This document shows positions 3,131-21,300 of a DNA stretch of 22,767 bases, in pieces; the stretch's first letter is position 1; each line of letters begins with the position of its first letter. The DNA lies in the IMG/VR virus record IMGVR_UViG_3300023176_002507, positions 1-22,767 of that record; one strand, 5' to 3'. Under the pieces are notes generated by a model that was given only the letters and a program-made list of their open reading frames with translations, did no database searches and was not told the origin of the DNA. The position numbers and the translations under genes were made by a program. Origin of the DNA: a virus.

Positions 3131-3673
3131 TCAGGGAATGAAATTAAAGTTGATGACAAATCGAGAGTTGTGTGTAGGTTTACTACTTGAATGAAAGCGC
3201 AAACCATCAAAGAACACACAACGTCCTTTCTTTGGTGTGACAGTGCTATTTATGGGATATTCGGCAATCGGATCTCCGTACATCCTTTCACTAAAATACG
3301 TATCACCGTCACTATCATTGACATAATACAGACATACCATATGTGGATCTGCCAGATCTACATGCATAGAATCATATTCTTTATGTCTAATGCCAGGTGT
3401 CTGCAAAAAACATCTACCACGGATGACTTTCGAAACACTGATACCTGTATTATAACACGCTTCAAATAAAAGCGGCATAAACAATCCAGTGTATGATGTA
3501 GTAGATTTACCATCTAACAAAAACATATGAGAGAATCCTGGTAGTTGACTCTCTCCATCTTCGGATAGATTGTCATGGTAGACCCACCTAAAATCTGTAT
3601 CAAATCTCATAGTTTCTTCGATGAGATTTTGGTAGTTAGGATTGATGCAATTGTCTTTAATAATGTTCTTCAT
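3131..3673 (-). CDS. 2OG-Fe(II) oxygenase, sixth of the cassette
   Basis: A 180-residue protein with the double-stranded beta-helix signature of 2-oxoglutarate/Fe(II) dioxygenases. The metal ligands are H104 and D106 in SMHVDLADPH, the distal H161 in FDGLRFHSSSKP and the 2OG-binding R171 in HNSRFVINFNF. These enzymes couple oxidative decarboxylation of 2-oxoglutarate to hydroxylation of a substrate; the substrate is unknown here. Translation most likely starts at MKNIIKDN because GGAGG stands 6 bases before this ATG; an in-frame ATG five codons earlier (MWRDQ) has no such site. The start overlaps the previous oxygenase by 17 bases. This is the only cassette gene with a strong ribosome-binding site of its own, so it may be made at a higher or independent level. 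Confidence 0.85.
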   Translation of the reverse strand: MKNIIKDNCINPNYQNLIEETMRFDTDFRWVYHDNLSEDGESQLPGFSHMFLLDGKSTTSYTGLFMPLLFEACYNTGISVSKVIRGRCFLQTPGIRHKEYDSMHVDLADPHMVCLYYVNDSDGDTYFSERMYGDPIAEYPINSTVTPKKGRCVFFDGLRFHSSSKPTHNSRFVINFNFIP

Positions 3674-4262
3674 CTGGTCCCTCCACATTCCAAGTAAGAT
3701 TTCCAGATACAGTCACTCGCTCATCAGTAGTAGATTTGAATGGATAGACTGCATGTTTTGTGGTGGACGGGAACATAAGTATAACACCATTCCAAGATTT
3801 ATCAACTGGTAATACTTCTGCTTCTAACTGAAACGCACCATTACTACTATGAGTGGTTCTCTCTTCTGCTCCGTATGGTATATTGACAAAGATAACAAAA
3901 CTTACAATACCAGAGTGTGTATGGACTGGATTGTATTCATTCTGTCTTTGGTAATTTACCCAAAGGTTTCTTAGTTTGATAAAAGGTGATACGTCTCTTG
4001 TCTCTTGAAAATCCCATGGACAAGTTTTATATACTTCATTCCATAGATCTCTAGACAAATCAACAACATAGTCTTCAAATCCAGGACATTCATACTTCCA
4101 CTCAGACAAACTTGACTGTTGTTCTAGAGCACCAGCCAATCTTGTGTTGTAGTTCCATGTCTCATCTCCTCTACGATTTCTTGTATAAGCAAGAAGATCT
4201 CTGTATAAGTTGTCTGGTATCTTCTCAGATATAAATGAAAGATTACTTTGTTGATAAATCAT
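3657..4262 (-). CDS. 2OG-Fe(II) oxygenase, H-x-H type, fifth of the cassette
   Basis: A 201-residue protein resembling the putative 2OG oxygenase family with an HxH first motif (Pfam 2OG-FeII_Oxy_5 type), which I recognise from marine phages. Key positions are H114 and H116 in NEYNPVHTHSGIVSFVIFVN, distal H170 in MFPSTTKHAVYPF and R182 in DERVTVSGNLTW. The usual metal-binding aspartate is replaced by histidine, as seen in this family, so activity is likely but not proven. LRNLWVNYQRQNEYNPVHTH is the most family-like stretch. The ATG overlaps the stop of the preceding gene as ATGA and has no Shine-Dalgarno sequence, so translation is probably coupled. Substrate unknown. Confidence 0.82.
   Translation of the reverse strand: MIYQQSNLSFISEKIPDNLYRDLLAYTRNRRGDETWNYNTRLAGALEQQSSLSEWKYECPGFEDYVVDLSRDLWNEVYKTCPWDFQETRDVSPFIKLRNLWVNYQRQNEYNPVHTHSGIVSFVIFVNIPYGAEERTTHSSNGAFQLEAEVLPVDKSWNGVILMFPSTTKHAVYPFKSTTDERVTVSGNLTWNVEGPDEEHY
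3680..3684 (-). promoter_or_regulatory. Ribosome-binding site (GGAGG) that fixes the start of the sixth oxygenase
   Basis: GGAGG on the minus strand lies 6 bases before the ATG at 3673, inside the end of the upstream oxygenase gene. It favours this start over the in-frame ATG at 3688, and is the best Shine-Dalgarno match in the enzyme cassette. Confidence 0.75.
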
Positions 4263-4774
4263 GGATACAAATCAGCACTTATACTATATCGTTTTTGATC
4301 TTCCACTCCTTTGCCAGGTGTATGTGGTAGATTCGATGGAAATATAAACCACGTCATTAAATTACTTGGTAAGTAATACGGGTCTCTTCTTGGCATGGGG
4401 AACATAGTAGTTCCAGACTCACCTAACTTCACATACATTATACCAGACAACGTAAATGGATTCTCTGGGTTATGGCAGTGCATGTATGGTTCTATCGGAT
4501 TTTTATCCCAATCAACATACACCCACGAATTCATATTGTAATCAAATATATCCATACCCCAAAACCTAGAACAAGCATCGTAGAATGACCATCTAAGTTT
4601 TTTGATCATAGGGTTATCTTGCTCTAAGAAATCATCCTTACCGTCATTGAAAGTAAGTTTAGATACGTGAGCCATCTTCTTAGAAAGACTGCCCTCTGCA
4701 ATAGAAGCATCGATGAATTCTATGAGTTCGTCAGCATCAATATCGACAGGGTATTGTTTGATTCCTAATACCAT
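4259..4774 (-). CDS. 2OG-Fe(II) oxygenase, H-x-H type, fourth of the cassette
   Basis: A 171-residue protein of the same broad type as its downstream neighbour: MHCHNPENPFTLSGIMYVKL (H99, H101) matches the HxHxxxxxxxSGxxYV pattern, distal H151 lies in IFPSNLPHTPGKG, and R162 lies in QKRYSISADLYP. It shares the SGxxYV motif but little else with the next gene, so the two look like distinct paralogs rather than a recent duplication. It is shorter than the others because the N-terminal region is reduced. The ATG overlaps the end of the preceding gene by 10 bases; the leader is A-rich with only a weak GAAA. Substrate unknown. Confidence 0.8.
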   Translation of the reverse strand: MVLGIKQYPVDIDADELIEFIDASIAEGSLSKKMAHVSKLTFNDGKDDFLEQDNPMIKKLRWSFYDACSRFWGMDIFDYNMNSWVYVDWDKNPIEPYMHCHNPENPFTLSGIMYVKLGESGTTMFPMPRRDPYYLPSNLMTWFIFPSNLPHTPGKGVEDQKRYSISADLYP

Positions 4775-5346
4775 TTTCTTTTTGTTTGTGCAATAATTTT
4801 ATCATGGATATCAGGATCACAAAATGAGAATGCTATGGTAGTCCTGAGTTCATTACCAATCAAACTATTAGGAGGTTGACCTTTGTGTAACCAGTTAGAT
4901 GGAATGAATACACCACTGTTAGGAACATATGGAGTAAAATGATATTCTTCATCGGGAGTCTGACATACAAACTCTCCTCCCCATTCTACATTCCAGTATG
5001 GTTGGTTAAAATAGATGAACGTCCATACTCCATGTTCTTCCCAATCTTTATGGAAGAGAGTATTCTGACCTGCAGTCTGACCATTAGCATGGATCTTGCA
5101 TAGTTTGATATCTCTACGCAAGTGCTTCATCATTTTCAATCTAACTGTAGTAGCGCACTTAGTAAAGATCAAATCTGTCCTAAGAGGATGTTGCCATGAC
5201 ACAGGATCGCCCTGACCATAAGACGCATTGTTGTACGTCCACGTGGCAAGACTATTCATAGAAGGTGATTTACGATCAAAGTAGTCCCACAAAGTAAGTC
5301 GTTCTGATTTTGATAGAACGTTATTAATAACAATCGGTTTATTCAT
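4765..5346 (-). CDS. 2OG-Fe(II) oxygenase, third of the cassette
   Basis: A 193-residue protein starting MNKPIVINNVLSKSE. The conserved facial triad and 2OG arginine are visible: H99 and D101 in NTLFHKDWEEHGVWTFIYF, H154 in FIPSNWLHKGQPPN and R168 in NELRTTIAFSF. WNVEWGGEFVCQTPDEE between them is the usual GGE/F strand of this fold. The start is chosen at the ATG that overlaps the preceding TGA as ATGA; the frame is open five codons further but an ATG there would lie inside the upstream gene. It is probably a prolyl-hydroxylase-like enzyme acting on a peptide or nucleotide substrate, but nothing in the sequence identifies it. Confidence 0.85.
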   Translation of the reverse strand: MNKPIVINNVLSKSERLTLWDYFDRKSPSMNSLATWTYNNASYGQGDPVSWQHPLRTDLIFTKCATTVRLKMMKHLRRDIKLCKIHANGQTAGQNTLFHKDWEEHGVWTFIYFNQPYWNVEWGGEFVCQTPDEEYHFTPYVPNSGVFIPSNWLHKGQPPNSLIGNELRTTIAFSFCDPDIHDKIIAQTKRKWY

Positions 5347-5906
5347 ACCCACCAAAGCCAACCAGTCATGATATATTTCTCTTGAGTTTCTGAGATTTGT
5401 CCCCTGTGTTTGTGAGTTACTCCAGCGGGAAAAATTACTGTCTTACCTTTTTCTGCTTTGACAGTATAATCTTGATAGAAAAATTCTGTGCCACCATCTG
5501 GAACATCATTTAGATATGTAATGTATACAAATGCTCTATCACATCCATCTTTGCCAGAACCATCAACATGCCAGGTGTAAAATCCATCTCCAGGTTGATA
5601 GTATTGAATCTGAGGCAAACGTTGCATTACAAACTCATGCCCTTGAATTGTCAAATCTTCTAGATACGATTGAATGAATCTATCAAGTTCTCTCTTATAA
5701 GAATCAAATTTATATTTCTCTGGTGGTCCTAGAGGTTCACCATCTTCCACAAAAAAGTCTTCACTCTTTTTAATTTCTGGAATGACACTGCCTCCGCCAA
5801 CGCGACCAGCATAAGTTAGGTCTGCTTCCTTAGCGTCATGAAATAATTCAATCAATCTATCACATATGGATAGATCTTCAAATTTATATTCTTTAATAAA
5901 ATTCAT
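5343..5906 (-). CDS. 2OG-Fe(II) oxygenase, prolyl-4-hydroxylase-like, second of the cassette
   Basis: A 187-residue protein with the clearest prolyl-4-hydroxylase-type motifs: H113 and D115 in GFYTWHVDGSG, the GGTEF strand (VPDGGTEFFYQDYTVKAEKG), distal H165 in FPAGVTHKHRGQ, and K177 in QEKYIMTGWLWW. A lysine in place of arginine for 2OG binding is normal for P4H-type enzymes. It probably hydroxylates a protein side chain, but this is family inference. The N-terminal half (MNFIKEYKFEDLSICDRLIE) is helical. Translation starts at the ATG overlapping the preceding TGA (ATGA), typical of this cassette. Confidence 0.87.
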   Translation of the reverse strand: MNFIKEYKFEDLSICDRLIELFHDAKEADLTYAGRVGGGSVIPEIKKSEDFFVEDGEPLGPPEKYKFDSYKRELDRFIQSYLEDLTIQGHEFVMQRLPQIQYYQPGDGFYTWHVDGSGKDGCDRAFVYITYLNDVPDGGTEFFYQDYTVKAEKGKTVIFPAGVTHKHRGQISETQEKYIMTGWLWWV

Positions 5907-6469
5907 TTGTATGCAGGTCCTTGTGTCCAACCAACTAGAGAATGTCTAACACCAGATGTAACAGGTTTGACTTGATGTGGTGTATCGGCATGAAAAAGAA
6001 TAATGTCTTTCTTCTTCAATTCTATCACCTTTTTTTCTGATGTATGTATTTCAAATTCACCACCCTCAAAATCATCATTGAGTAGAACAGTGAAACTAAT
6101 TTTTCTAATTCTATTATTTTCTCTCTTACCAGGACTCCAATTGGATTCGTCAATATGCCAACCATAGAAATCACCAACATCATACTTTGTCAATTGAAGT
6201 GGTTCGATATAATCAACATCCAAATTCCACTCGCATTTTTTATTTGCAAATTGTATGAGACCATCAACTAATTCATACACATTTGTGTCATCTACCCAAC
6301 AAGCCTTTGAACTTCTATCTGGATGATCTTCACTAGTATAATTTTGTCCATCCCATTGATCAGTCTTGCATTGTTCATACTCATTGTATGGTTTCAAAGC
6401 TTTCTCTAGCAATGGAAAAAAATCATCGTCTAGATGAACTATCATATACTGATGTCGAAATGAATTCAT
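5903..6469 (-). CDS. 2OG-Fe(II) oxygenase, PKHD/PiuC-like, first of the cassette
   Basis: A 188-residue protein starting MNSFRHQYMIVHLDDDFF. H105 and D107 lie in YDVGDFYGWHIDESNW, EGGEFEIH forms the next strand, H165 lies in LFHADTPHQVKPVTSG, and R175 in GVRHSLVGWTQGP. The YGWHxD and HxVxPVTxGxR pattern resembles PKHD-type hydroxylases such as PiuC/YbiX. The start is the ATG overlapping the TGA of the U32-methyltransferase gene as ATGA; the frame extends 12 codons further inside that gene and is not used in my call. The substrate is unknown; PiuC relatives are linked to iron uptake, but in a phage operon this says little. Confidence 0.86.
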   Translation of the reverse strand: MNSFRHQYMIVHLDDDFFPLLEKALKPYNEYEQCKTDQWDGQNYTSEDHPDRSSKACWVDDTNVYELVDGLIQFANKKCEWNLDVDYIEPLQLTKYDVGDFYGWHIDESNWSPGKRENNRIRKISFTVLLNDDFEGGEFEIHTSEKKVIELKKKDIILFHADTPHQVKPVTSGVRHSLVGWTQGPAYK

Positions 6470-8148
6470 TTTGAAATTACCATAACATGTATACCATTCC
6501 ACCATCCATTAGGATCTTCTGGAATCTTGGTTAGAATCTTTCTTTCAAATAAAAGATTTAAGTTGTTCTCTTTTACAAAGAACTCTGCTGCTTGCACAAC
6601 ACCAATAAAGTTTGCATCATCAATAACAAGAATAAACTTGTCTGCGAATGCTGGAATCAGGAATGTGAGATTATCATATTGAGCTTGTGGATCGTGATCA
6701 GCGTCATAGAAAATAACATTGGGTTGTTTATGTACGTGTCTGGGAGTCAGATCCTGAATAGTATTGGGACAGAAGTATTGCTTCTCTCTCAATCCACGGA
6801 AGAAAATCTTTTTTGGATCATCATATGATTCCATTTCAATGTCATCTCTAAATGGAGAGATCTCTTTCTCTGAATAATCATCAACAGCAAACGCTTCTAC
6901 ATCTCTGTTCATGGTAGCAGCAAAGAATGTACTACCAGCATGTACACCCAATTCCATGTAGATAGCGTCAGGTTTGGATAGTAGATTATTCAAGAAGTGT
7001 CTTACAGTATTAGAAGATAATCCTTCGTAATTAAATCCCTCTTCTACAAACTCACTATCACCTCTTGCTGCTTTTTCAATAGATGACAGAACCAATTCGA
7101 TATCCTCATCAAAGTGTCTATCGCTTCTCTTCATTCTAGATTGCACAACAGAGTCGCAGTAGTTGCACTTCCAACAATCAAAACCACATGTCTTGATCTT
7201 CTCTCTCCAAATATCAATTGGTTTTTCTTCGAGAGTTACATCTTCAATGTAGTCATTGAACTGTGGGTGTAGCAACTCCTCATCTGCTGCCCATCTCTTG
7301 ATGATGTCCATGCTTTCCATAAGACGCATTGCATTCTCTCTGCCATGCATCTTGAATACATCAATACCTAGATCAAGAAACTCTTCCCAATCTTTTTTCC
7401 ATGGTGGAATGGTTGCTGCTTTCAGTGATGCAGCAGGATCTCTCTCGTCCCAGGTAGAACAAGATACTCTACTCAAACTGGTATTGAAATACTGAGGATC
7501 ATCTTTCTCTCTCACCATATTATAGTGATAGTGTTCTGGCATGATAGGACAACCACCCCAGCACCACTCGTTAGCAAGTAGTGAGATCTTGACTGGTTTG
7601 CCAATCTCAGCACAGTATTCTTTTGCTTCTTTGATTCTCAGTAGAGTATCTCTGTCACGCATGAGATCTCTATCTAGGTTGACATAATGAAACCCTGCTT
7701 TTGCTAGGTTTACAATTTCATTAGGTCTAGTAACTTCCCTAAGGATAGTGTTTTTGATGAACAGTTCGGGAAACTCCTTCTGCAACTGTCCAGTCAACAC
7801 CCATGATGTATGTGGAATAGTAATGATACGAACTCCTGCATCATACAGGAATCTAAAATTCTCAATGAAAATATCCAGGTTCTCTTGAGTAGGTGGAACT
7901 TGGATATTATTAAATGTAGCAGACAGGGGGATACCTGTCTCCTGAGAAACAAACAAGGCATTGAGAGTAGTATCTCTCATGTCCCCATCAATAACATCAC
8001 CCATCGCATCCTGCACAAACGGCGGCATACGACAGGTGAAGTAAATATCGTAGATGTATTCCTTATGTTCCTTGAGAAAAGGAATAAAGGTGTTTAGTAC
8101 AAAGTCTTCAGGAAGCTTTGTATTCAGCGGGATCGAGAATCTTGCCAT
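6466..8148 (-). CDS. Two-domain enzyme: U32-like Fe-S TIM-barrel protein fused to class I SAM methyltransferase
   Basis: A 560-residue protein with two parts. Residues 1 to about 335 look like the peptidase-U32/UbiU-type fold: a barrel-like alternation (VRIITIPHTSW, FHYVNLDRD, KPVKISLLANEW), the motif NEWCWGGCP (C196, C200), C230, DVFKMHGRE, and a cysteine cluster CGFDCWKCNYC (C321, C325, C328, C331). U32 relatives such as UbiU/UbiV and RlhA/TrhP bind an Fe-S cluster and support oxygen-independent hydroxylation. Residues about 375-560 look like a SAM methyltransferase of the Methyltransf_24 kind: YMELGVHAGSTF is the SAM-binding loop, VIFYDADHD and FILVIDDANF the following strands. It is the first gene of the cassette, overlaps the 76-residue gene by 41 bases, and ends in an ATGA overlap with the first oxygenase. 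The methyltransferase call is firm; the U32 call is moderate. Confidence 0.65.
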   Translation of the reverse strand: MARFSIPLNTKLPEDFVLNTFIPFLKEHKEYIYDIYFTCRMPPFVQDAMGDVIDGDMRDTTLNALFVSQETGIPLSATFNNIQVPPTQENLDIFIENFRFLYDAGVRIITIPHTSWVLTGQLQKEFPELFIKNTILREVTRPNEIVNLAKAGFHYVNLDRDLMRDRDTLLRIKEAKEYCAEIGKPVKISLLANEWCWGGCPIMPEHYHYNMVREKDDPQYFNTSLSRVSCSTWDERDPAASLKAATIPPWKKDWEEFLDLGIDVFKMHGRENAMRLMESMDIIKRWAADEELLHPQFNDYIEDVTLEEKPIDIWREKIKTCGFDCWKCNYCDSVVQSRMKRSDRHFDEDIELVLSSIEKAARGDSEFVEEGFNYEGLSSNTVRHFLNNLLSKPDAIYMELGVHAGSTFFAATMNRDVEAFAVDDYSEKEISPFRDDIEMESYDDPKKIFFRGLREKQYFCPNTIQDLTPRHVHKQPNVIFYDADHDPQAQYDNLTFLIPAFADKFILVIDDANFIGVVQAAEFFVKENNLNLLFERKILTKIPEDPNGWWNGIHVMVISK

Positions 8149-8338
8149 ACTCTACAATCACTTTCTCCATATAAATGTGTTCAGCTTCTGGATTAGTTTC
8201 CAGAATATACTTGTTCTCTTCCGCAAGCGCCATTAGCTTCTTGCGATCAAGATCTTTGTTCTTATCTTCCAACTCAAATCTATCATAGATTGAGTAATGG
8301 ATGATGGGAAGTAATTCAAGGTGTCTCTGACTCGCCAT
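8108..8338 (-). CDS. Hypothetical protein, 76 residues, helical and acidic
   Basis: The product starts MASQRHLELLPIIHYSIYDR and continues with a charged helical region (FELEDKNKDLDRKKLMALAE, NKYILETNPEAEHIYMEKVI). No membrane segment, cysteine pair or catalytic motif is visible, and I do not recognise the family. The start overlaps the preceding gene by 23 bases and the end overlaps the U32-methyltransferase gene by 41 bases; both overlaps are long, but the frame is open and its composition is protein-like. A late-promoter octamer 33 bases upstream of the ATG supports this being the first gene of a transcript leading into the enzyme cassette. An alternative is that the 22 codons upstream in the same frame are also translated; no start there has better support. 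Confidence 0.6.
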   Translation of the reverse strand: MASQRHLELLPIIHYSIYDRFELEDKNKDLDRKKLMALAEENKYILETNPEAEHIYMEKVIVEYGKILDPAEYKAS

Positions 8339-9164
8339 CGTTAGATTGCTCGATTTGTAGTTGTCCTGAGTATTTATGTTGCTGAAGTTTAGGTAATGCA
8401 ATACCCTCTTGTTGCAACTGTGCCTGAACCTGTGGAGCGATCATCTTATTAAGTTTATCAATTCCACCACCAATCATACCAGAGTATTTGACTGCGATAC
8501 CAAGTGCTTCTACTTGATCCTCTTCTGGCATGTCCATGATTGATGTCATATTACCAGCACCAATCCTACCATATGAAATGATGTCCATTGCTGCTTGCTT
8601 ACCCATACGGGCAATCCAATAAGTCTTGACTTCGTGCGGTTGCTCTGTTGTAAAATACTCTAGAGGATAACCATTTTCTTCGTCAACATATTTGTCAACA
8701 ATATTCAAGAAATACTTGAGTTCCAGTTCAGACTGTCTAAGTTTCCTTTTCCAGATACTAATATCATAATCGTTCTTTTCTAGATCGATCTGCATTAGTT
8801 CTCTATCAAGTTCGTCGGGAACTTGTTCCATGTCCCTAACTATTCTCTTTCTTAGAATTTCTGCTTTTCTGAGACTGTTTCTATTTTCCATGTAGGCATG
8901 ATATCTAGTCTCAAGTTCCATCAATGCTTGACGAACTTTTCTCCATGGAGTGAGTTGAGTATCAGCAACAAAGTGCTCACACTCATATTCTGTCATGCCA
9001 CTATTGAATCTCATACTGGCAGACAATACATCAAAGTCTTTCGATGATAGACCGAACTCGTCTACAAAAGATTTTGATAAATGAATTTCGCCCGTATCCG
9101 AGCTAACAATGTTTCTTACGTCCGAAACGATATCAGATAAACTTGCGTCAGAATTTAAAGACAT
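8316..9164 (-). CDS. Conserved-looking helical protein of unknown function, 282 residues
   Basis: The product starts MSLNSDASLSDIVSDVRNIV. Residues about 75-180 are strongly helical and charged with coiled-coil character (MELETRYHAYMENRNSLRKA, EILRKRIVRDMEQVPDELDR). The C-terminal third contains a glycine-rich turn (YGRIGAGNM, YSGMIGGGIDKL) and a Q-rich end (APQVQAQLQQEGIA). No signal peptide or membrane segment is seen. The chosen ATG has GAGG 9 bases upstream and overlaps the previous gene by 17 bases; an ATG two codons earlier (MHMSLN) would have it only 3 bases away. The context, between fiber and enzyme genes, suggests a virion or assembly protein, but I do not recognise it and give no function. 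Confidence 0.72.
   Translation of the reverse strand: MSLNSDASLSDIVSDVRNIVSSDTGEIHLSKSFVDEFGLSSKDFDVLSASMRFNSGMTEYECEHFVADTQLTPWRKVRQALMELETRYHAYMENRNSLRKAEILRKRIVRDMEQVPDELDRELMQIDLEKNDYDISIWKRKLRQSELELKYFLNIVDKYVDEENGYPLEYFTTEQPHEVKTYWIARMGKQAAMDIISYGRIGAGNMTSIMDMPEEDQVEALGIAVKYSGMIGGGIDKLNKMIAPQVQAQLQQEGIALPKLQQHKYSGQLQIEQSNDGESETP
8371..8378 (-). promoter_or_regulatory. T4-type late-promoter-like octamer (CATAAATA)
   Basis: The minus strand reads CATAAATA inside the end of the 282-residue gene. It is one base from TATAAATA and lies 33 bases before the ATG of the 76-residue gene, almost the same spacing as the perfect octamer at 12417-12424 has to its gene. It would drive the 76-residue gene and the enzyme cassette independently of the fiber genes. 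Because it lies in coding sequence a chance match is possible. Confidence 0.5.
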
Positions 9165-9957
9165 ATGCATCAACCTCATACTCTGGTTTACGATCCCAAT
9201 CAGTTTCAGAGATCGTTCTGCCCATTTCAATTGCTTGTTTTTGGGGCAAGAGGATTCCCATGTAATCCTCATATAATATATTTAGGTCCCAAACAGTAGT
9301 GCAACTTTCAAACTTTTTGACTAGTGTTTGATACTCTACAAGCATTGTAGAAAGTTTATCTTCCCACTCTTCCGCTTTTTGTAGAATCTTATTTGCTAGG
9401 GCATCCTTATCGATATGTCTCTCCACAGAGAGATAATCTAGGAAAGGAGTTTTGTGTCCATCTGCTCCTCTGTAAGTCAACCACTCTCTTGCTTCATGCT
9501 TCTGGATTTCCCAGGATGCAGCCTCAAGATCTGTAGTATCTTTTAGATTTCTAAATCTAGTATTATATTCATCCTCAATGATTTCTTTTGCAAAAGCAAC
9601 CATGAAATCAATAACATCCTTAAGAATGTTATCTGTCAACTCAATGGGCACCTTCATAATTTCGTTTGCAGGCGTCCATGCAAAACCTGCTTCACCTGTA
9701 TTTACAGCGACCTTACCAAATGGTCTGATCTCAGAGAAGAAGTTAGATCCGTTATAAGCTTGCTGCTTAGTAACTTCTCTATACTTGTGCTCCCACTCTT
9801 TGTAAATAATTTGGAAGATATTTTCACTAACTTCTACACACGAGAAGTGCATCAGCGAAAACATTTCGTTGTAATGCAAGCGAAGATCCCCAGTTGCAGA
9901 TGCGTTGACAAACTGTTCTGGCTTGATTTCCTTTTCGTTGATGATTAGATATCTCAT
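9148..9957 (-). CDS. Conserved-looking protein of unknown function, 269 residues
   Basis: The product starts MRYLIINEKEIKPEQFVNAS; its ATG shares one base with the stop of the fiber-like gene upstream (TAATG), which fixes the start. The middle is mixed (FGKVAVNTGEAGFAWTPANE), followed by long helices (LKDVIDFMVAFAKEIIEDEY, DKDALANKILQKAEEWEDKL). The end, TVWDLNILYEDYMGILLPQK, then DWDRKPEYEVDAYVFKF, is aromatic and acidic. No catalytic motif, cysteine cluster or transmembrane segment is visible. It is coupled to the fiber-like gene before it and to the helical protein after it, so the three may belong to one structural or assembly subgroup. I do not recognise the family. Confidence 0.72.
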   Translation of the reverse strand: MRYLIINEKEIKPEQFVNASATGDLRLHYNEMFSLMHFSCVEVSENIFQIIYKEWEHKYREVTKQQAYNGSNFFSEIRPFGKVAVNTGEAGFAWTPANEIMKVPIELTDNILKDVIDFMVAFAKEIIEDEYNTRFRNLKDTTDLEAASWEIQKHEAREWLTYRGADGHKTPFLDYLSVERHIDKDALANKILQKAEEWEDKLSTMLVEYQTLVKKFESCTTVWDLNILYEDYMGILLPQKQAIEMGRTISETDWDRKPEYEVDAYVFKF

Positions 9958-11240
9958 TATTGTGCCTGTAATGCGGTGACAGCAGCGGCAGCAGAAAGGC
10001 AACCGCCAGAAGATTGACCATAATGTCCCTTGGGTCTTGCAGCAGCACCAAGGTTGGTCTCAACGTCAGTAGTATAATCCCACTTAGTTGTGTGATTATT
10101 CTGCTGACCATCATACTGACCCATCATGTAACCATGGTCTTGACCCATTTGGAAGTTCTCTTCACCATAAGAACGAACTTTGGTTCCGTTCTTAAGACCA
10201 GATCCAGAGGAACCGCTGTATTTGGTCCATGGTGAAGTAACATTGTTTCCAGTACCAGCATAGAAATGTCCGTACTTGGAAGGAAGGAACTTACAAACTC
10301 CGTCAGGAGCAGCGTTGGAAGACCATCCAGCCCAACTATCGTTGGAATGATTGACATAATGTCTGCTACCACGGAAGGATGCCCAAGATCTATTTTCATC
10401 ACCACAAGATGCAGTGTGGTCAGAACCAGAAGGCGAATTGCCTACCTGATACATGATCTCAGAAGGATAGTGTAGTTTACCAACAGCAGAATTACCTCCA
10501 CCGAGGTTGTAACCAAACTGTTGCACCTGTGCTGTTGCACATGCGTTTCTGTCTCTGTTGACAGGCATGTTCCAACCACCAACAACGGTGTATCCCATCA
10601 CGCCTCTGGGGTCATCACCTTCATAACCGTAGTTCGATGGAGAGTAAGTACCACCACCAGGGTTACTTCCTGTAGTACCAAACATTCTCCTCATACCTGT
10701 GTGCAAGTTAACGGAGTCTGTGTGTGAAGATGATCCAGTGAATGAGTTAACACAACCATGAGCATATCCAAAGTAGTCACTCCAGGTACAGTCAGCATAT
10801 GTTAGTGCTCTAGTCAACTGCTCGCCGCAATAGAATGTAATGTCATTTGCGTGCCAAGTCTTATTGACTGTTCTCCAAGGGTTAGATCCCTTGTACCCCG
10901 CCACCAGATATCCGTGTGTAATAATACTTCTGTATCTAAATCCAGTTAGAGGAGCAGATGCTACAGTCTGTCCTGGATACGCCCAGAATACACCATTCTC
11001 ACCATCGGATACTAGATAAGAACCTCTAGTTTCATTTGCTGGTTCTGGAATACCACCACCAACTTCATCCCACTCAGATCCATTCCAGATCTGTGCTTTA
11101 TTCTCTTCAGTATTGTAAATAATCTGACCGACATTTGGAGTAGCTGGTCTGCTGCTGTTAGTAAAGGATGGTAGTTTAAGACCCTGTGTGGTCAAACTAG
11201 CATTACCTGTAACAACTGTTCCAACAGTTAATTGAGACAT
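9957..11240 (-). CDS. Fiber-like virion structural protein, 427 residues
   Basis: The N-terminus (MSQLTVGTVVTGNASLTTQG, PATPNVGQIIYNTEENKAQI, WNGSEWDEVGG) is a phage-fiber attachment-type segment; the IWNGS motif also occurs near the N-terminus of the glycine-rich protein in this window. The remaining 340 residues are rich in G, S, N, Y, W and H, with stretches such as FRYRSIITHGYLVAGYKG, and have no transmembrane segment or catalytic motif, fitting an extracellular beta-rich receptor-binding or baseplate-fiber protein. I recall similar proteins annotated only as structural in marine T4-like phages. The leader between the preceding stop and the ATG is 31 bases and holds TAAATAAA, a possible late promoter, and TAGGA 8 bases ahead of the ATG. 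It ends in a TAATG overlap with the next gene. Confidence 0.75.
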   Translation of the reverse strand: MSQLTVGTVVTGNASLTTQGLKLPSFTNSSRPATPNVGQIIYNTEENKAQIWNGSEWDEVGGGIPEPANETRGSYLVSDGENGVFWAYPGQTVASAPLTGFRYRSIITHGYLVAGYKGSNPWRTVNKTWHANDITFYCGEQLTRALTYADCTWSDYFGYAHGCVNSFTGSSSHTDSVNLHTGMRRMFGTTGSNPGGGTYSPSNYGYEGDDPRGVMGYTVVGGWNMPVNRDRNACATAQVQQFGYNLGGGNSAVGKLHYPSEIMYQVGNSPSGSDHTASCGDENRSWASFRGSRHYVNHSNDSWAGWSSNAAPDGVCKFLPSKYGHFYAGTGNNVTSPWTKYSGSSGSGLKNGTKVRSYGEENFQMGQDHGYMMGQYDGQQNNHTTKWDYTTDVETNLGAAARPKGHYGQSSGGCLSAAAAVTALQAQ

Positions 11241-12390: not shown

Positions 12391-15300
12391 TTATACAATA
12401 GCCCAGTTACCACCACTATTTATAGTTACAGTGTAACCGTTCGCAATAGTGATAGGTCCTGCACTTACACAGTTAATGTTTGCGGGGATTGTGATATTTT
12501 CAGCAACAGTATTGCTGTTGGACTTGAAGATACCGTAGGAGTCAATCCACTGTCTGACACCGTTAGCATACAGAGCACCATTCTCGATGTTAGTATCACC
12601 AGAAATGTGTAGTTGATATGTAGGATCAACTCTATTAATACCAACTCTAGACAGTCTGTAGATGTCTGCTTGGTTTGATGCTTCAGTCCATCTGGAAGTA
12701 ACGAATTCAGAGTTGTTCTGGAACAACTGACCATTGATGTTCATGTCTCCCTGAACATTCAACTTATAGTTTCTGGTCTGGTTGTTCTCTGGATCAACAC
12801 CAGAGAATGCAGAAGTGTTGACTGCAATTGCGTTCTCAGAACCATCAATCAAGAGAGCAGGTGTTCCCTTCCAGGAAGTACCGCCATTGTTGCTGGATGG
12901 TGTGATTTCAAAGCAATCGTTGAATCCGATCTGGTTACCAACTCTGAAGTTTCTTGCAGAAGAAGAACCAAGGAAGTATAATGGAGCACCAGAGTTATCA
13001 TTAGCAGTATCAATAGTCATACTGATAATGTTGGTGAGATTTCTAGCTTGGTCTAGAATTCTCGTTCCGTTTACATGATAACCAAATACTGCGTTTACAC
13101 CAGTGTCATCATAAACTTGGAAATGAACTTTATCTCCATCTTCTGGTTCGTAGATGTCAAGACCTTCAGGTGTTGCCCTGATTGCCATGTCAATTCCAGA
13201 ATCAGAAGATCCATTGAAGAAAATAGTTGGTTGTGTAACACCAGAAAGGAGCATGTTTCCACCAACATGTAGTGCTTGTGCTGGATTGACTCCAACATTG
13301 ATACCAACACGATCGGTAGATACATCGACGAATAGTGTGTCGGTATCAACTGCAAGATCGTTTGTGATAGAAACAGTGCTCAGGAATGTACCTGTACCTT
13401 GTACTTGGAAGTTAGATGCAGCACCAGTTAGGGTCAGCGAACCAGTCATGGTATCGCCTGCCTTGAGAACGTTCAGAGAAGCAGCACCAGTGATAGATGC
13501 TGTGATTGTACCAGCGGCAAAGTTGCCACTCGCATCACGCTTGACTGCTGTATTTGCAATGTTTGCAGATTGGAATTCGATATTACCTTCGTTCCAAACC
13601 TTGCTACCGTTGACAGAGAAACCATCAGCATTGACAACCTGTACGTTGAGAGTACCAGATCCGTCAGATGCATTACCACCAGAAGCGATAATTGCTGAGT
13701 TGTAGTTTGCTGCCTGAGTAGAAGAGTTGAAGTATAGACCAGGAGAAGATTGAACTCCGTCCTTTCTACCTAGTCTTAGGTTTGCTGTGCCACCATCACT
13801 TTCCCACTTAGCAACTTCTACTGTGTTGTCATCTTCAATAGTGAACTCTTGGAATGGTACGTTGATAGCAGTGCTACCAATGTTAATTGCACCAATGAAG
13901 TTACCAGTCGTTAGTCTACCAACAATGATGGTGTAGTCATTGAAGTTGTCAGCGGTGTCATCGTTGACGATGATGTTGTCAATTGCGATCTGACCCGTAC
14001 CCTGACCATTTGCGTTGTACAGGTTGACGTTGTTACCAGGAGTGAATGGAGAAGTAGTTAGAGTTCTGCCACTTACATAGATTTGATACTTAGGATCACC
14101 ATTGAAAGACTTGATGGTAATAGTATCTCTGAATACTGTTGGACTAATAAATCTTGGAAGTCTGTTATCAGAGAGTGTTCCATCATTAATGTTTAGAGCA
14201 TTCTGATACCATGATCCTTGCTTATCATCTAGTCTGTCTGCGTTTAGACCAGATCCAACACCATCATTTAGAGAAGACCAAATCTTTGCCCAGGAACCGA
14301 AGCTGGTAACACCAGTTCCAGATCCACGCAACCACATGTTGTCATTGTCGGTAAATGCAAGTTGTCTTACACCACCACCAGATGCGTCAAAGTTGCTACC
14401 AAACTGTCTGATAGTCATGACGAGGTGCTTGTTACCACCGTCTAACAACTGGTTAGAAGAGTTGTTTACAGTGTTAGCAACAATACCTTCTTGGAAGAAG
14501 TTTGGAGTTGGGTTGGATGTTGGGTTGTTAGTACCAGTTAGAACTCTGAGTGTGTTACCAGAAGAACCAGAGATGTCAATGTTGTAAGTACCAGACAGTC
14601 TATCTGTTGGTAGCGTACCAGCGTTCTGGTTGCTAGAGTTCAGGTAGAAGGAACCTTGTGCGCCGTCGAGAAGGTCAGCGTCAAGACCAGAGTCAGGACC
14701 GACGTTTAGATCGACAGAACCATTTCCAGATTGACCAATGGTGAACTGAGACTTCTTAAATCTTGCAACACCAATCGTTCCATACAGGTCAGAGGAGATC
14801 GTCAGATCAGTAACTCTCTGAACGTCAATAGAAACGTTTGCATACTGTCTGTTGACTGTACTTAGTTTTGCTTCTAGAACCAGACCAGATCCTCCACCAA
14901 TTTCTGGTGGTGGATTTGTGATTGAGAAGTCAGCATTGTATCCAGTACCACCGTCAGTAACAGTGATCTCGGTGACTGCATTGTTTGCAACAATCACGTT
15001 GCAACGTAGTCCAGTGCCAGTTCCACCAGACAATCCAACGTCAAAGTATTGACCATTGGTGAATCCACTACCACCAGAGGAAATGATAACGTCATCGATG
15101 AATCCACCTTGAGTGTAGCTGGACTCGAAGATCATTGGAGATCCACCACGCTCAAACTCGATGATGGTTCCTGCAGGAATTGTAGCAGTGACTGGGTTGT
15201 TGATCGAAACTGTCGTCAGACCAGCAGCAGTAATAACACCTGTAATATTGGTATTGGCTTGGATACCAGAAACATTGTTTAGAACTTCATGTCCAATCAA

Positions 15301-18300
15301 TACATCCGAGTTGGTTGTAAAGATCAGAGAACTAGATCCAGCATTTACGTTAGAGTAGAGTTGAGCAAAGTATCTTGTTTCAGAACCCTTGACCGACTGA
15401 ACTGCAAGTGCAAAGTTCTGGTCACCACGCAGGAATGTGAAGGAGTTTGCAGCACCACCAGTTGCCAATCTGTCAGTCTCTAGAACACCAGATGTGATGT
15501 CAGAAGCAGCGATCTGGTTGGAGGATAGAGATACCCAGTTATTAGCGTTGCTGGAAGAAGTATTGACGACTCTGCTAATGTTGACAGCAACTGGAGGAAC
15601 ATCACTAGAATCAATATTGTCAGTATCGGTGATCTTGACGTTATTAACAATGTTACCGTACAGTCTGCTTTCGATGAATGCATCACCTTGTGCTTGTGTA
15701 CCTGCACCAGTTGGAGCAGCAAACGTAACAGTTGGTTGAGTTGTATATCCTTTACCGCCCTTGATACCCTGGAACTCGATGATTGTAACGGTAACAACCT
15801 CGCCGTTAGCAATGGTACATTCTGCTTGTGCAGGAATTGCACCTAGTCCAGGATTACCACCAGAGATTGTAACCGTTGGTGGGGAAGTGTATCCAGAACC
15901 ACCATCAGTGATATTGATCTGGTAGACTACACCAGTTCTGTATTCAGTTGCCTGAATTCTACCACCAGAGATACTACCAGTGAAGATATCATTGATAGTA
16001 AACTGCAGTGTGGGATCTACAGGGAATCCAGCGAACAGACTGGAGTTATCATTGTTCAGAATGAACGATGTAGATGTATCCTGTTGAATTGCGATGTCAC
16101 CAGCAAGTGCGCCTTCGATAGCAAGTCTTGCATTTTGATCGGGAACAGTGTAGACACTGAATGGTCTGAGTGCTGGGATCTGGTCGATAGAAATCTTACC
16201 AGAGTCGGTCAATTCAACCAGTGCTCTAGGAACAGCGTTAGTGGAGTATGGTTTGTTGATGTATGGACCAAGGTTGTTGGTGATGTAGTCTCTAACTGCT
16301 TTCTGAGTAGGTAGTTTAGAGTCAGTTGCGTTAGCACCACCAAGTGTGTTGGATGCGTCGAAACCAGTAACAACAACGTCGCCACCTTTCAGTTTCAAGA
16401 ATTCAACTTCAGAGATCGTAACCGTACCCGTGAAAGTAATAGCACCAGTTCTGTTTTCGATTCTTGCGAATGTACCAACCTTGAAGTCACCAAGTTCGTC
16501 AGTACCAGAAACATAAACACGACCATAGTTTTCAGAGACTTGTTCGAATGCCTCAACCTTAGTACCACCGTTCTCGGGTAGTGCTAGGTAGTTAATACCA
16601 GAACCTGCAAATTCCCAAGTGTGGGAAGAAGAGTTGACGATGGATGGTCTGTGTAGGTTGATTGTAGAACCAGTTAGTGTTCCTACAGAAACTGGGTTTC
16701 CAGTAGCAATACTGGTTAGATCCATTGCCTGACCAGTTCCATCATCGATGGTCAACTGTGCAGAGAAAGGAGGACCAACAGTTACCGAACCAACAGCATC
16801 GATAAAGTATTCAATTTCAGGATTGGTGTTTGTAACACCATCAATCTTGACGACATAGTGCTCAAGAGGTTCTCTTCCAAGTCCGCTAACTGTTAGAATA
16901 GTTCTACCAGTTGGAGTTGCGGATACATTGGTGATTGTTGCAATATCAAAGACGTATGGATCTTTTCTGAATCCTGTACCTCTTAGTGCATATTGTCCAA
17001 AGTTGGTAGCGGAGTTGGTGATAGATGCATAACCACCAGACTCACAGAGGACACCATCAGAACAGAAGATAACAAAGACCGAAACCAACTGGGTATAACC
17101 ATCGTTGATAACTTTATATCCTGTACCACCAAAGGAGACGATCGTGAATGCCGCAGCAACCATCGATTTACCTTGGTTGGGGAAGGATGCAGAACCGTCT
17201 AGTTCCAGACCAGGGAAAGGACAGTTGGGTTGCTTGACCTTAGAACCGTCAATTAAAGCACCGCCACCACCTAGGAAGGAGATAACAGATGCGTTCTGGG
17301 TGTAAGGAGATGCTTCAATAATTGGGAAGTCATCAAAGTCACCACGAACCGCCATTCTGACGCCATCCTGATCATAGATGTAGCTGTCAGGATAGGTTAG
17401 AATTTGTGAAGTATCATACAGAGTTCCTGTGTTCTTAGTTGTAGCACCAGGAGCAACTGTACCGTCTAGAATATCTTCTAGTAGAGCGAATAATGTTGTA
17501 ATTGTGGATGCTACGTTTGCACAATCTGGGTTTCCAGGATCAGCAAGAATAGTTCCGTCAGTGAATTGTGGGATTGGCGAAGATGTAGTTACAGCAGTGC
17601 CAGCACCATCAGTCCAGTTACGCATTGCAGCAATAGCGTAATCTCTTACTTGCTGATATGCATATAGAGTTTGTGGTAAGTATGCAGAATCAATACCTGT
17701 TAGTTGTGCTCCAGTGTAGTAGAACTCTGCATTAGTTACGGTTCCTGAATTACCACCTAAGCACAAGTCTCTTACAAGACCTTTGAGGATGAATCCAATA
17801 TCTCTTCTGCACTTTCTTTCATCTACATTATTAAGTGCTAGTGCTGGATACTGAACAAGAGTATCTAGATATGCCTGATCAGCAATAAGATCCTTGTTAC
17901 GAGCGATCAAATATGCTGCATCTAGATATGTTCCAGAAGCATTATTTGCAATAACGTCTACCCAGAGGTATGATAAAGTATCAATAGCAGATGCTACGTT
18001 AGCACAAGCAGGTGTTCCTGCTGTTGTTGTGATAACAGTATCATCAAAGTATCTTGGTAGAGTGGAATATACAGGTGTGTAGACAGGATCACTTGGAGTT
18101 CTATTATTAGTTCTCCAGTTACACATTGCAAAGGTTGCTAGTTCTCTAGCATACTCAATTGCACGAACTGTTTGAATAATCTCATTCTCTACATATGCAA
18201 CCTTGGCACCAACAATATACTTCTTAGCAGCTTCGATTACGTTAAAGTTAGATCCAAATTCTAGATCTCTAGATAGAGCATTCAAGAAGTGAACAACGTC

Positions 18301-21300
18301 TTCACGACACTGATCATCATCAACAGGAATGCTGAAACTTGGATATAGTTTCTGACCATTATCACATTCCAGTAGAATGTTGTTGATCTGAACAGTGTCA
18401 TCCTCTGCGATTCCAGGGATTGGAGATGCTAGAGTAACTGTTGCAGCACCACTGACTACATTATCCCAAACAAAGTTTGTGATATTGTAAGAGTTTCCAC
18501 CATACGTAACCGTACCGCCACTTACATACGTATGCGTTTGACTTGTAAAACCAAGATAAATCTTGAATTCTGAACCACCAACACTCAATGCGTTGGATAC
18601 AGATCTGACAAATGTATGTGCAGACTGTGGTAAATGCTTGACAGCATTAGCAGTTGCACCAACAAACGAATGTGGAGATTGTGGTTCAAACTTAATTGCA
18701 TTGGAAGTAGCAGAAACAAAGGTGTGAACTGAACCAGATGCAGTTCCTGCGCTACCAACATTGATAGTCATCCAACCATCTTGTCTTCTGATCGCATTGG
18801 CAGAAGCACTAACAAACGTGTGTGCTCCCGTATATGGGGAAGATCCTACATTGATTGTAAACGTATTTACGTCAACAACCACAATTGGCATCCAACGTCC
18901 AGATGGATAATCATAACCAGCACGTGGATATGTCTTTTGTGCGGTATTTCCATCTAGATCACAAGTGTATGTGAGAGATCCATCTTGAATCTGTACATAG
19001 TCACCACTAGTAAATCCGTGACCAGCAACTGTAAATGTTACCGTTCCTGTTGCAGCATTATAAGGTGCGTCAGTGGGAGTATGCTCCGTATATCCAACAT
19101 CAATAATAGGGATAGACTGACCAGCATATGGGTCGGAACCAGGACGTGGATAGGTGTGCTGGGTTGCGTCTCCATCTTGATCACAAGTAAATGTAAACGA
19201 ATTATCAGAAAGAACTACACTGCGTCCAACTCCAAGACCATGCTGTCCAATTTGACAAGTCATTGATCCAGTGGAAGGATCATAGTTTACCGCAGATGGT
19301 TGGAAATACTGGTTTGGTTGAGATGCACCAGCATTTACAGTGATAGTGTTTGCACCAACTGCTGTGATAGGCATAGACCTACCAGCAAATGGATCGATAC
19401 CAGGACGAGGATATGTTTTAACCGACTGATATCCATCCATGTCGCAAGTAAACGACAGGGAGTTATCATCAATAACAATACCTTCACCAACAGAAAGTGT
19501 ATGTGTACCGATTGTGAGAACTAAATCTCCAGTAGCAGGGTCATAAGAAGCACCAGATGGAGTCCACTGTTGATTTGCTCCAGATGCACCTACATTTACA
19601 GTAAAGGTATTTGTGTCTGCGGCAGTGATAGGAAGTGCTTTTCCACTTGCATACTGGTCAGATTCAGGCAGAGCGTGCTCTGTCTTATTGCCGTCCATCG
19701 TACAAGTGAATGTGATGGATTCATCGGCAATCTTAACACCATCACCAACCGTCAGACCATGGTTTGCTACTGTGAATACAGCATCACCTGTAGCAGGATC
19801 GTATGTTACATTGGTTGGAGTGTAAGCGGAATCTACAGCACCGCCAATATCGTATACAGAGTAGTATTCTTTCTTGAATTGGTCGTTGATCTTTCCTACA
19901 ACTTCATCAGCGATGAAATCTCTGTTGTTACGGATGAAGGTAACAGCATCCTGATATCTTCTATCAACAGGAGAAGATAGTGGGAATTTGTTTGGAGAGT
20001 TTAGTAGGGATAGGGTGATACTCTTGGAGTATGACTTTACAACAGCAGCAGATCCTGGTTGGAAGTTAGCATCTGTAATTGCTGGGAACTTCTTAGGAAT
20101 TACGAATCTTCTGCAGCGACCGTCAGCGTCTTCGATAACTTTGTAGATTCTCTGCTTACCATTCAATGCAGACAAGTCAGGACCAGCAGTAGGAAGACCG
20201 CTAATTTCAATCTCCTGACCTTCTTTGAAATCGTGGAAGTTTGTTCTACCGACTAGTTCACTGGTGTAGAATACAACACCACCAAGGTCTTCGGCATTGC
20301 CAAATTGTGCAGAATGTACACCATCTTGAGTAATAGATGGGTCTCCTTGTAATGAGAAATCAATTCTTTGAATTGGTAGAGTTGCTGTGATGTTCTCATC
20401 AACAGATACAACTTCACCTTCTGCTCTAATAGAAACTAGTTCAGTGGTATCAATTTCTTCTACAATAATGTTTGCATCATTGATGGTGAAGTTGCATGGT
20501 CCAATAGTATCAAAAGTAGGTGCGCCTAGAATTGGCGAGAATGATACGTACCACTCAGTAGCAGGAATGCTATTCTCAACATCCTCGTTATCATTTACCT
20601 CAATGATTTCGTAGAACTGAGTTCCAGTAAAGAATGTATTTGGAACGTCATCGATAGCAACATAAACACCACCAGTAAATGATACACTTTCTGGATTGCT
20701 GTTAAACTTGAGAGTATTAGATGCGTAAATTTCTGACGATGACTGTAGTAAACTGCCTCCATCAGAACCGCTGATTAGGTATCTAAAACTTTCACCCTGA
20801 ATAAAGGAACCAGACTTCAGTGTAACATCAATTGTACCTGTTAGGTATGCACTAGCACCAATTGCGGTTGTGAAAGATACATCAATAATTTCTGCTCTAG
20901 CACCAGAGTTAATACCAACAATTTCTAGACCAGTTTGTAGTTGTGATAAACCTGTGTTATCTTGGAAGCTTAGACGGAACTGATCGGGTCCAAAAATTTG
21001 GTGACCGATAGGGAAGTTAGTTCCAAAGTCTCCGTTGGTATCATAATCAACGATAACACGCTGTTTATCGTCAAATACCATCGCAAAATCCCAAGTTGCG
21101 ACAGAATCACCAAATGCGTCAACTTGGTCTCTATAAGTAACACCAGTAACGTAGTTCTTATCGCCAAACTTAAAGATGTGCTTCTTGGGGTTAGCAGGTC
21201 TGATGATTACCAGACGCAAGTTGTCACCAACAACAGAGCAGTCAGGAGGTAGGGAGATTGGGTTATCTTCTACGTAGTCTCCGCCAGAAACAATCAGTGT

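Follow-up and report, generated by a model that had tools for sequence, protein, structure and literature searches.

T4-like cyanophages are already known to encode 2-oxoglutarate (2OG)-Fe(II) oxygenases, with up to 5 genes per genome (PMC3037559), 10 in S-CREM1 (PMC9964418) and 24 in S-SCSM1 (PMC9602691). These genes have been counted genome-wide, and metabolic, DNA-repair or nitrogen roles have been proposed for them; host metabolism is the usual explanation, and the presence of up to 24 of them in one cyanophage genome is unexplained. Here we analysed a stretch of viral DNA of 22,767 nucleotides (nt), positions 1 to 22,767 of IMG/VR record IMGVR_UViG_3300023176_002507 (the window), in which six such genes, OxA to OxF, stand in a row behind the gene of a fusion enzyme, U32MT, and a tail-fibre gene, fib1417. 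The window is T4-like cyanomyovirus-type phage DNA, judging by the T4-like phage families that its structural genes hit, and at the DNA level Synechococcus phages match it best.

OxA to OxF resemble the known cyanophage oxygenases in belonging to PF13640 and PF13759, in occurring in similar phages and in the low identity between paralogues. Unlike the known sets, they follow a fusion enzyme and a fibre gene in one uninterrupted run, lie in a late block and show an ordered, modular turnover in relatives. Phage S-RSM4 (FM207411) has the same chromosomal slot upstream of g13, with about nine 2OG-type genes (three annotated as 2OG) and an iron-sulfur (Fe-S) protein, but the fusion enzyme is absent from that region, the fibre is different, and the set and order of genes are only partly shared with the window. 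We found no description of the module, the fibre link or the fusion enzyme in the open-access literature that we searched, and both the module and its link to the fibre appear to be undescribed.

We tentatively read the locus as a late virion-tailoring module, in which a conserved core of fibre and fusion enzyme would be accompanied by exchangeable oxygenases that modify the fibre next to them or another tail protein nearby; we put the chance of this at a little under even. What we observed are the family assignments, intact active sites, purifying selection, synteny, co-occurrence, modular turnover and late-promoter motifs, and from these we infer the substrate, the reactions, Fe-S binding and an effect on host binding. 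The features concerned are, in order of transcription:

9957 to 11240, minus strand: fib1417, tail-fibre protein of 427 residues and proposed substrate (phrog_1417; T4-GC 351, 'sericin 1 precursor-like').
9148 to 9957, minus strand: h1604, core module protein of unknown function (phrog_1604; T4-GC 352).
8316 to 9179, minus strand: h1409, core module protein of unknown function, start codon approximate (phrog_1409; T4-GC 353).
8371 to 8377, minus strand: ATAAATA, late-promoter-like motif about 33 nt upstream of the small open reading frame (ORF) and the fusion gene, its position kept in relatives.
8108 to 8338, minus strand: small ORF of 76 residues between h1409 and the fusion gene, present in 28 of 50 loci with enough upstream sequence.
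6466 to 8148, minus strand: U32MT, fusion protein of 560 residues with a TIM barrel (about 1–340) and a class I methyltransferase-like domain (about 380–560) (phrog_1458; T4-GC 354).
5903 to 6469, minus strand: OxA, 2OG-Fe(II) oxygenase (PF13640; HxD...H...R).
5343 to 5906, minus strand: OxB, 2OG-Fe(II) oxygenase (PF13640; HxD...H...K).
4765 to 5346, minus strand: OxC, 2OG-Fe(II) oxygenase-like (PF13640 below cut-off; phrog_274; HxD...H...R).
4259 to 4774, minus strand: OxD, 2OG-Fe(II) oxygenase-like, lost in several relatives (PF13759 weak; phrog_81; HxH...H...R).
3657 to 4262, minus strand: OxE, 2OG-Fe(II) oxygenase (PF13759; HxH...H...R).
3131 to 3688, minus strand: OxF, 2OG-Fe(II) oxygenase-like, start possibly at 3673 (PF13640 below cut-off; phrog_274; HxD...H...R).

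An ORF check found the seven genes from U32MT to OxF, which a first-pass annotation had described as one coupled block, present and intact on the minus strand close to where it had placed them, and joined as it had claimed by ATGA overlaps at 6469, 5906, 5346 and 4262; the other overlaps measure 10 bases (OxD/OxC) and 17–32 bases (OxF/OxE). All genes of the module, from the fibre to OxF, lie on this strand with intact frames, and transcription runs from a giant fibre gene (22308–12391) through fib863, fib1417, h1604, h1409, the small ORF and U32MT to OxA, OxB, OxC, OxD, OxE and OxF, followed by a 62-residue ORF, h580, and by g13, g14 and g15. The unit takes in these seven genes and, beyond what had been described, also the small ORF (8338–8108) and a core that reaches upstream to the fibre gene (11240–9957).

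OxA to OxF were placed in families by Pfam, PHROG and NCBIfam profile scans. OxA (E-value 2e-16), OxB (6e-12) and OxE (3e-11) matched 2OG families of Pfam above the curated cut-off, OxC (2e-4), OxF (3e-4) and OxD (0.013) below it, with OxA, OxB, OxC and OxF falling into the PF13640 group and OxD and OxE into the PF13759 group. PHROG families named '2OG-Fe(II) oxygenase' matched OxA (9e-37), OxB (2e-39), OxE (5e-23) and OxD (3e-8), and OxF gave a weak match to phrog_61 (2e-6). Considering that OxC, OxD and OxF were under the curated cut-offs, we checked the active sites in homologue alignments (22–34 distinct homologues per gene; residues numbered from the longest ORFs), which place the iron and 2OG ligands at HxD(117/119)-H177-R187 in OxA, HxD(121/123)-H173-K185 in OxB, HxD(104/106)-H159-R173 in OxC, HxH(99/101)-H151-R162 in OxD, HxH(114/116)-H170-R182 in OxE and HxD(109/111)-H166-R176 in OxF, with HxH replacing HxD in OxD and OxE. 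These ligands are invariant, the sole exception being D123 of OxB, which is conserved in at least 90% of homologues. Only OxA and OxB can be clearly aligned with each other (E-value 2e-6); the profiles of the others hardly recognise one another, so the six are distinct subfamilies and not the product of a recent tandem amplification. Pairwise comparison of the window with eight relatives gave ratios of nonsynonymous to synonymous substitution (dN/dS) of about 0.02–0.23 for every orthologous oxygenase, a range comparable to that of fibre and neck genes. Judged from sequence, OxA to OxF all belong to the 2OG-Fe(II) oxygenase superfamily, with intact active sites and under purifying selection, and the earlier claim of six different oxygenases in a row held.

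The link to the fibre comes from a four-gene core, consisting of fib1417, the two proteins h1604 and h1409, and U32MT. When we searched 50,697 phage records by tblastn (using the specific part of fib1417 as its query), each core gene was found in 123 records with an identical breakdown (77 Synechococcus, 38 'Cyanophage' and 8 Prochlorococcus records), compared with 463 cyanophage records for g13. Similarly, fib1417 and h1409 precede U32MT in all 50 IMG/VR loci with enough upstream sequence, and h1604 does so in 46 of them. The order T4-GC 351-352-353-354 is kept in P-SSM4, Syn33 and P-HM2, and by homology in S-CAM4. One locus (L079, 2362–13635) carries the whole fibre-h1604-h1409-U32MT-2OG unit twice in tandem, with divergent copies, and in another (L053) the fibre-type match sits in a giant fibre ORF directly before h1604. 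Overall identity of fib1417 falls to about 25–40% in relatives, with its C-terminal motifs (GEEN...GYMxGxYxGQQNN...KGHxGxSSG) still conserved. We consider the core, on this pattern of co-occurrence, to be inseparable from the tail-fibre gene. Of the structural genes, only fib1417 was found here to accompany the enzyme throughout, which would make it the likeliest substrate, and a much better-supported candidate target than a glycan or DNA.

Behind this core the oxygenases vary. Among 53 complete loci, the interval from U32MT to h580/g13 showed 13 architectures: A-B-C-D-E-F in 8 loci, A-B-G-C-D-E-F, with a seventh 2OG gene added, in 11, and in the remainder subsets without D, F or both, B-E only, a 2OG gene followed by an Fe-S protein and a second 2OG gene, a DUF6445 gene, an OxF-type gene with a DUF401 permease, and others. 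Wherever OxA to OxF types are present, they form a sub-order of A-B-G-C-D-E-F. Some members of one clade keep all six, at amino-acid identities that go down to about 55–75%. In a close relative (L009), whose neighbouring genes are 96–98% identical to those of the window, OxA has been replaced (49%), OxB is divergent (79%) and OxD is absent. We therefore describe the oxygenases, as far as their arrangement in relatives can tell, as a variable but order-preserving appendix of zero to seven genes whose members turn over singly.

The first-pass annotation had proposed a single multi-step pathway, with one product worked on by the seven enzymes in turn. The conserved order, the translational coupling and the fact that some members of one clade keep all six oxygenases would fit such a pathway. 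On the other hand, relatives carry anything from zero to seven oxygenases behind the same fusion enzyme, and OxD or OxF can be lost, or OxA replaced as in L009, while the rest stay 96–98% identical, so that one fixed pathway is disfavoured; we rejected the model of the whole block as one pathway on these turnover data, and now regard it as improbable. As for the pattern that had been expected to count against a pathway, genes scattered and independently gained or lost, or eroded active sites, we found it in part: single members do turn over, but order is kept and active sites are uneroded, which we read as neither random scatter nor decay.

Several other genes were seen in or beside this slot. 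In L065 (3871–5283) a flavin-dependent tryptophan halogenase (PF04820, 6e-71) lies just after h580, with zero oxygenases behind the fusion gene; a search for papers on halogenase/TonB clusters of bacteria that share these enzyme families yielded none of use. L031 has SpeD inserted in the slot. In one lineage, a DUF401-type membrane permease repeatedly follows right after an OxF-type gene (L076, 12107–13195; L079, 7567–8601). Ferredoxin-like 4Fe-4S proteins of about 230–280 residues (L055, 9682–10533; L059, 12324–13121; L007, 5945–6646) are encoded by genes flanked by 2OG genes, both in relatives and in S-RSM4, and may act as an electron donor or as a further tailoring enzyme. Finally, proteins matching PF20043 (DUF6445) and phrog_1644 ('minor coat protein') in L083 (11808–12518), L002 (10700–11410) and L005 (4553–5269) show the pattern PHxD...H...R, and may, by this pattern, be 2OG-type proteins of a further family instead of coat proteins.

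This variety bears on a further explanation, namely a biosynthetic or cell-envelope tailoring route, with surface glycans of host or phage, lipids or a small molecule as substrates of the oxygenases, which would sit beside fibre genes only because that region is a tolerant insertion hot spot. The same region also takes up metabolic genes (petE and gnd in S-ShM2, SpeD and the DUF401 permease in relatives), the nearest named models of the oxygenases, although with weak scores, are of the FlmC and YbiX/PKHD types, and cyanophage 2OG oxygenases have been treated as host-metabolism genes (PMC3037559, PMC9602691). We nevertheless think this unlikely, if a serious contender, because the fusion enzyme goes strictly with the fibre gene and the module duplicates together with the fibre in L079, and because the block has a late-promoter motif and contains neither a glycosyltransferase nor a sugar-nucleotide gene.

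The late motif also speaks to the timing of the module. The reported cyanophage late promoter is NATAAATA, with the core ATAAATA (PMC2984593). The window has four copies of this core, and only its coding strand bears them: one lies about 32 nt ahead of fib863, one about 33 nt ahead of the small ORF, one within OxF ahead of h580, and one ahead of g13. As the total is at chance (4 found, 4.5 expected), its evidential value lies in strand and conserved position only. Across 36 related loci ATAAATA lies at conserved spacing upstream of the fibre, small ORF/U32MT and g13 genes; 30 of the 36 have it immediately ahead of the small ORF and fusion gene, and over all 36 we found it neither on the opposite strand nor within 130 nt of an oxygenase start. 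Scans for sigma-70 promoters and terminators stayed at chance level. Together with the tie between core and tail-fibre gene, the motif supports the late, virion-side setting that the initial annotation had suggested for the block.

Such timing speaks against another idea, that the enzymes mainly draw down 2-oxoglutarate and so manipulate the NtcA nitrogen response of the host. Drawdown has been proposed for cyanophage 2OG oxygenases (PMC3037559). Late expression would hardly suit an early metabolic takeover, bulk turnover would not call for six subfamilies, diverse and each conserved in its own right, next to fibre genes, and substrate-uncoupled turnover of 2OG is normally slow. We give this idea next to no weight.

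The fusion enzyme matches phrog_1458 (3e-231), a family of unknown function. Its AlphaFold2 model shows an (alpha-beta)8 barrel joined to a Rossmann methyltransferase domain, with low confidence in the cysteine-bearing loops. The C-terminal half matches PF13578 (E-value 2.5e-4, below the cut-off of that family), and a Foldseek search with the full model aligned it with O-methyltransferases (TMt about 0.5–0.63), so that the proposed fusion to a methyltransferase domain was borne out: by profile and fold, this half is a class I S-adenosylmethionine (SAM) methyltransferase-like domain. Matches in BFVD include methyltransferases and, for the barrel, a phage 'Peptidase'.

The barrel had been likened to the U32 'peptidase' family (RlhA, TrhP, UbiU/UbiV), which includes O2-independent hydroxylases with 4Fe-4S clusters (PMC6747719). 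U32MT resembles that family in having a TIM barrel, in the candidate cysteine ligands that follow strand 7 and in an FKxxGR motif that follows strand 8, and differs from it in lacking PF01136, in cysteine spacing, in its methyltransferase fusion and in being apparently phage-only. PF01136 gave no match in the window even at E-values up to 10, nor in hmmscan, and we have downgraded the U32 label for that reason. Seven cysteines of the barrel (196, 200, 230, 321, 325, 328 and 331) are invariant in 33 homologues, down to 53% identity; their spacing, CX3CX29C plus CX3CX2CX2C, differs from the four-cysteine U32 motif for 4Fe-4S binding, CX6CX15CX3/4C, which we did not find in U32MT. C39 after strand 2 recalls the arrangement of UbiV, yet is S or T in three homologues. 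Alignment of the barrel with four E. coli U32 proteins by hhalign was borderline (E-value 6e-4, probability 28%), and in a longer alignment (E-value 0.011) FKMHGR of U32MT, of which every residue except M267 is invariant, came into register with FKIEGR of U32. Foldseek ranked methylenetetrahydrofolate reductase (MTHFR) first for the barrel and the U32 protein Mk0906 (5d88) twelfth (E-value 3.6e-5, TMt 0.57), the latter with the lowest root-mean-square deviation among the leading matches (4.1 A). We call the barrel U32-like rather than U32, as the earlier U32 assignment is plausible but weakly supported; the barrel probably carries one or two Fe-S clusters.

Searches of PDB sequences with the fusion protein and its profiles gave no significant match, and one pattern-based scan of GTDB genomes turned up no cellular homologue of the barrel domain, only two short contigs of marine metagenome-assembled genomes. 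Both contigs, DANB01000001.1 (L118) and PBPE01000072.1 (L119), encode proteins closely related to U32MT; they carry assignments to Euryarchaeota and Dehalococcoidia and are probably misbinned phage contigs.

OxC- and OxF-type genes carry the label denV in phrog_274 and in many cyanophage records. This label has been attached to proteins encoded at 3131–3688 and 4765–5361 of the window, at 10686–11195 of L003, at 10698–11198 of L004 and to many cyanophage genes in GenBank/RefSeq. Pfam scans of OxF and of the 'denV' proteins of P-SSM4 and Syn33 gave 2OG families or nothing, with HxD...H...R present in all, and we rejected an identity of the OxF family as DNA endonuclease V, as no DNA-glycosylase or endonuclease family matched. 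The homologues of OxF share with denV of phage T4 the name alone, and 'denV / DNA endonuclease V' on these records is probably, going by motif and family matches, a widespread propagated mis-annotation. The label and the DNA-repair role cited for cyanophage 2OG oxygenases (PMC3037559) would favour enzymes that modify or repair phage DNA in the manner of AlkB or TET. We hold this to be very improbable: OxC- and OxF-type proteins carry HxD...H...R, their matches, where they have any, are to PF13640 and include no glycosylase family, no gene of the window matched an AlkB or TET family, and the genes lie in the late structural region, not in the replication region.

Elsewhere in the window, g14 (959–2083) contains a repeat segment of the type GGxGYTxxPxVTIxGG that recurs in the giant fibre (12391–22308) and matches many unrelated structural PHROGs, as a mobile structural repeat. 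Scans for tRNA genes and Rfam families gave no match.

If the module does tailor the virion, the core would provide fib1417, h1604, h1409 and the fusion enzyme, with its putative Fe-S TIM barrel and SAM methyltransferase. During particle assembly the oxygenases would hydroxylate side chains, whether in the fibre encoded alongside them or in another tail protein nearby, and the fusion enzyme would modify these further by a redox step, a methyl step or both. Each oxygenase would have one site and the hydroxylations would be independent of one another, so that members could be gained, lost or swapped without breaking the others. The outcome would be a fibre surface chemistry that differs between otherwise similar phages.

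Several observations weigh against virion tailoring. The evidence on substrate and activity is indirect. Many of the 123 records with core genes are near-identical isolates, and the comparison was of counts and breakdown rather than of full record lists. Four of the 53 loci have the core and zero oxygenases. In S-ShM2, T4-GC 351–353 are together, but about 6 kb containing unrelated metabolic genes separates h1409 from the fusion gene. S-SCSM1 has many of its 24 2OG genes in the replication region (PMC9602691), and not all cyanophage 2OG oxygenases can therefore be fibre enzymes. The main weakness is the run of about nine 2OG-type genes in the equivalent slot of S-RSM4, where U32MT is absent; the oxygenases therefore go with the slot no less than with the core, and the slot beside fibre genes draws 2OG genes even where the core is lacking, an arrangement that fits virion tailoring and a tolerant hot spot alike.

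With these points in mind, the late block tied to a tail-fibre gene makes covalent modification of the receptor-binding apparatus a testable idea. More broadly, marine T4-like phages might possess an evolvable protein-tailoring system, in which an adhesin, a fusion enzyme and exchangeable oxygenases (or other enzymes in relatives) diversify the host-contact surface, a generalisation that we offer as speculative and rather doubtful as yet. If it were true, the exchange of modifying enzymes, besides mutation of the fibre, would contribute to the evolution of receptor binding. This would be a new route of host-range evolution in abundant marine viruses, and would provide substrates for many orphan oxygenases and for a possibly new family of Fe-S/methyltransferase fusions.

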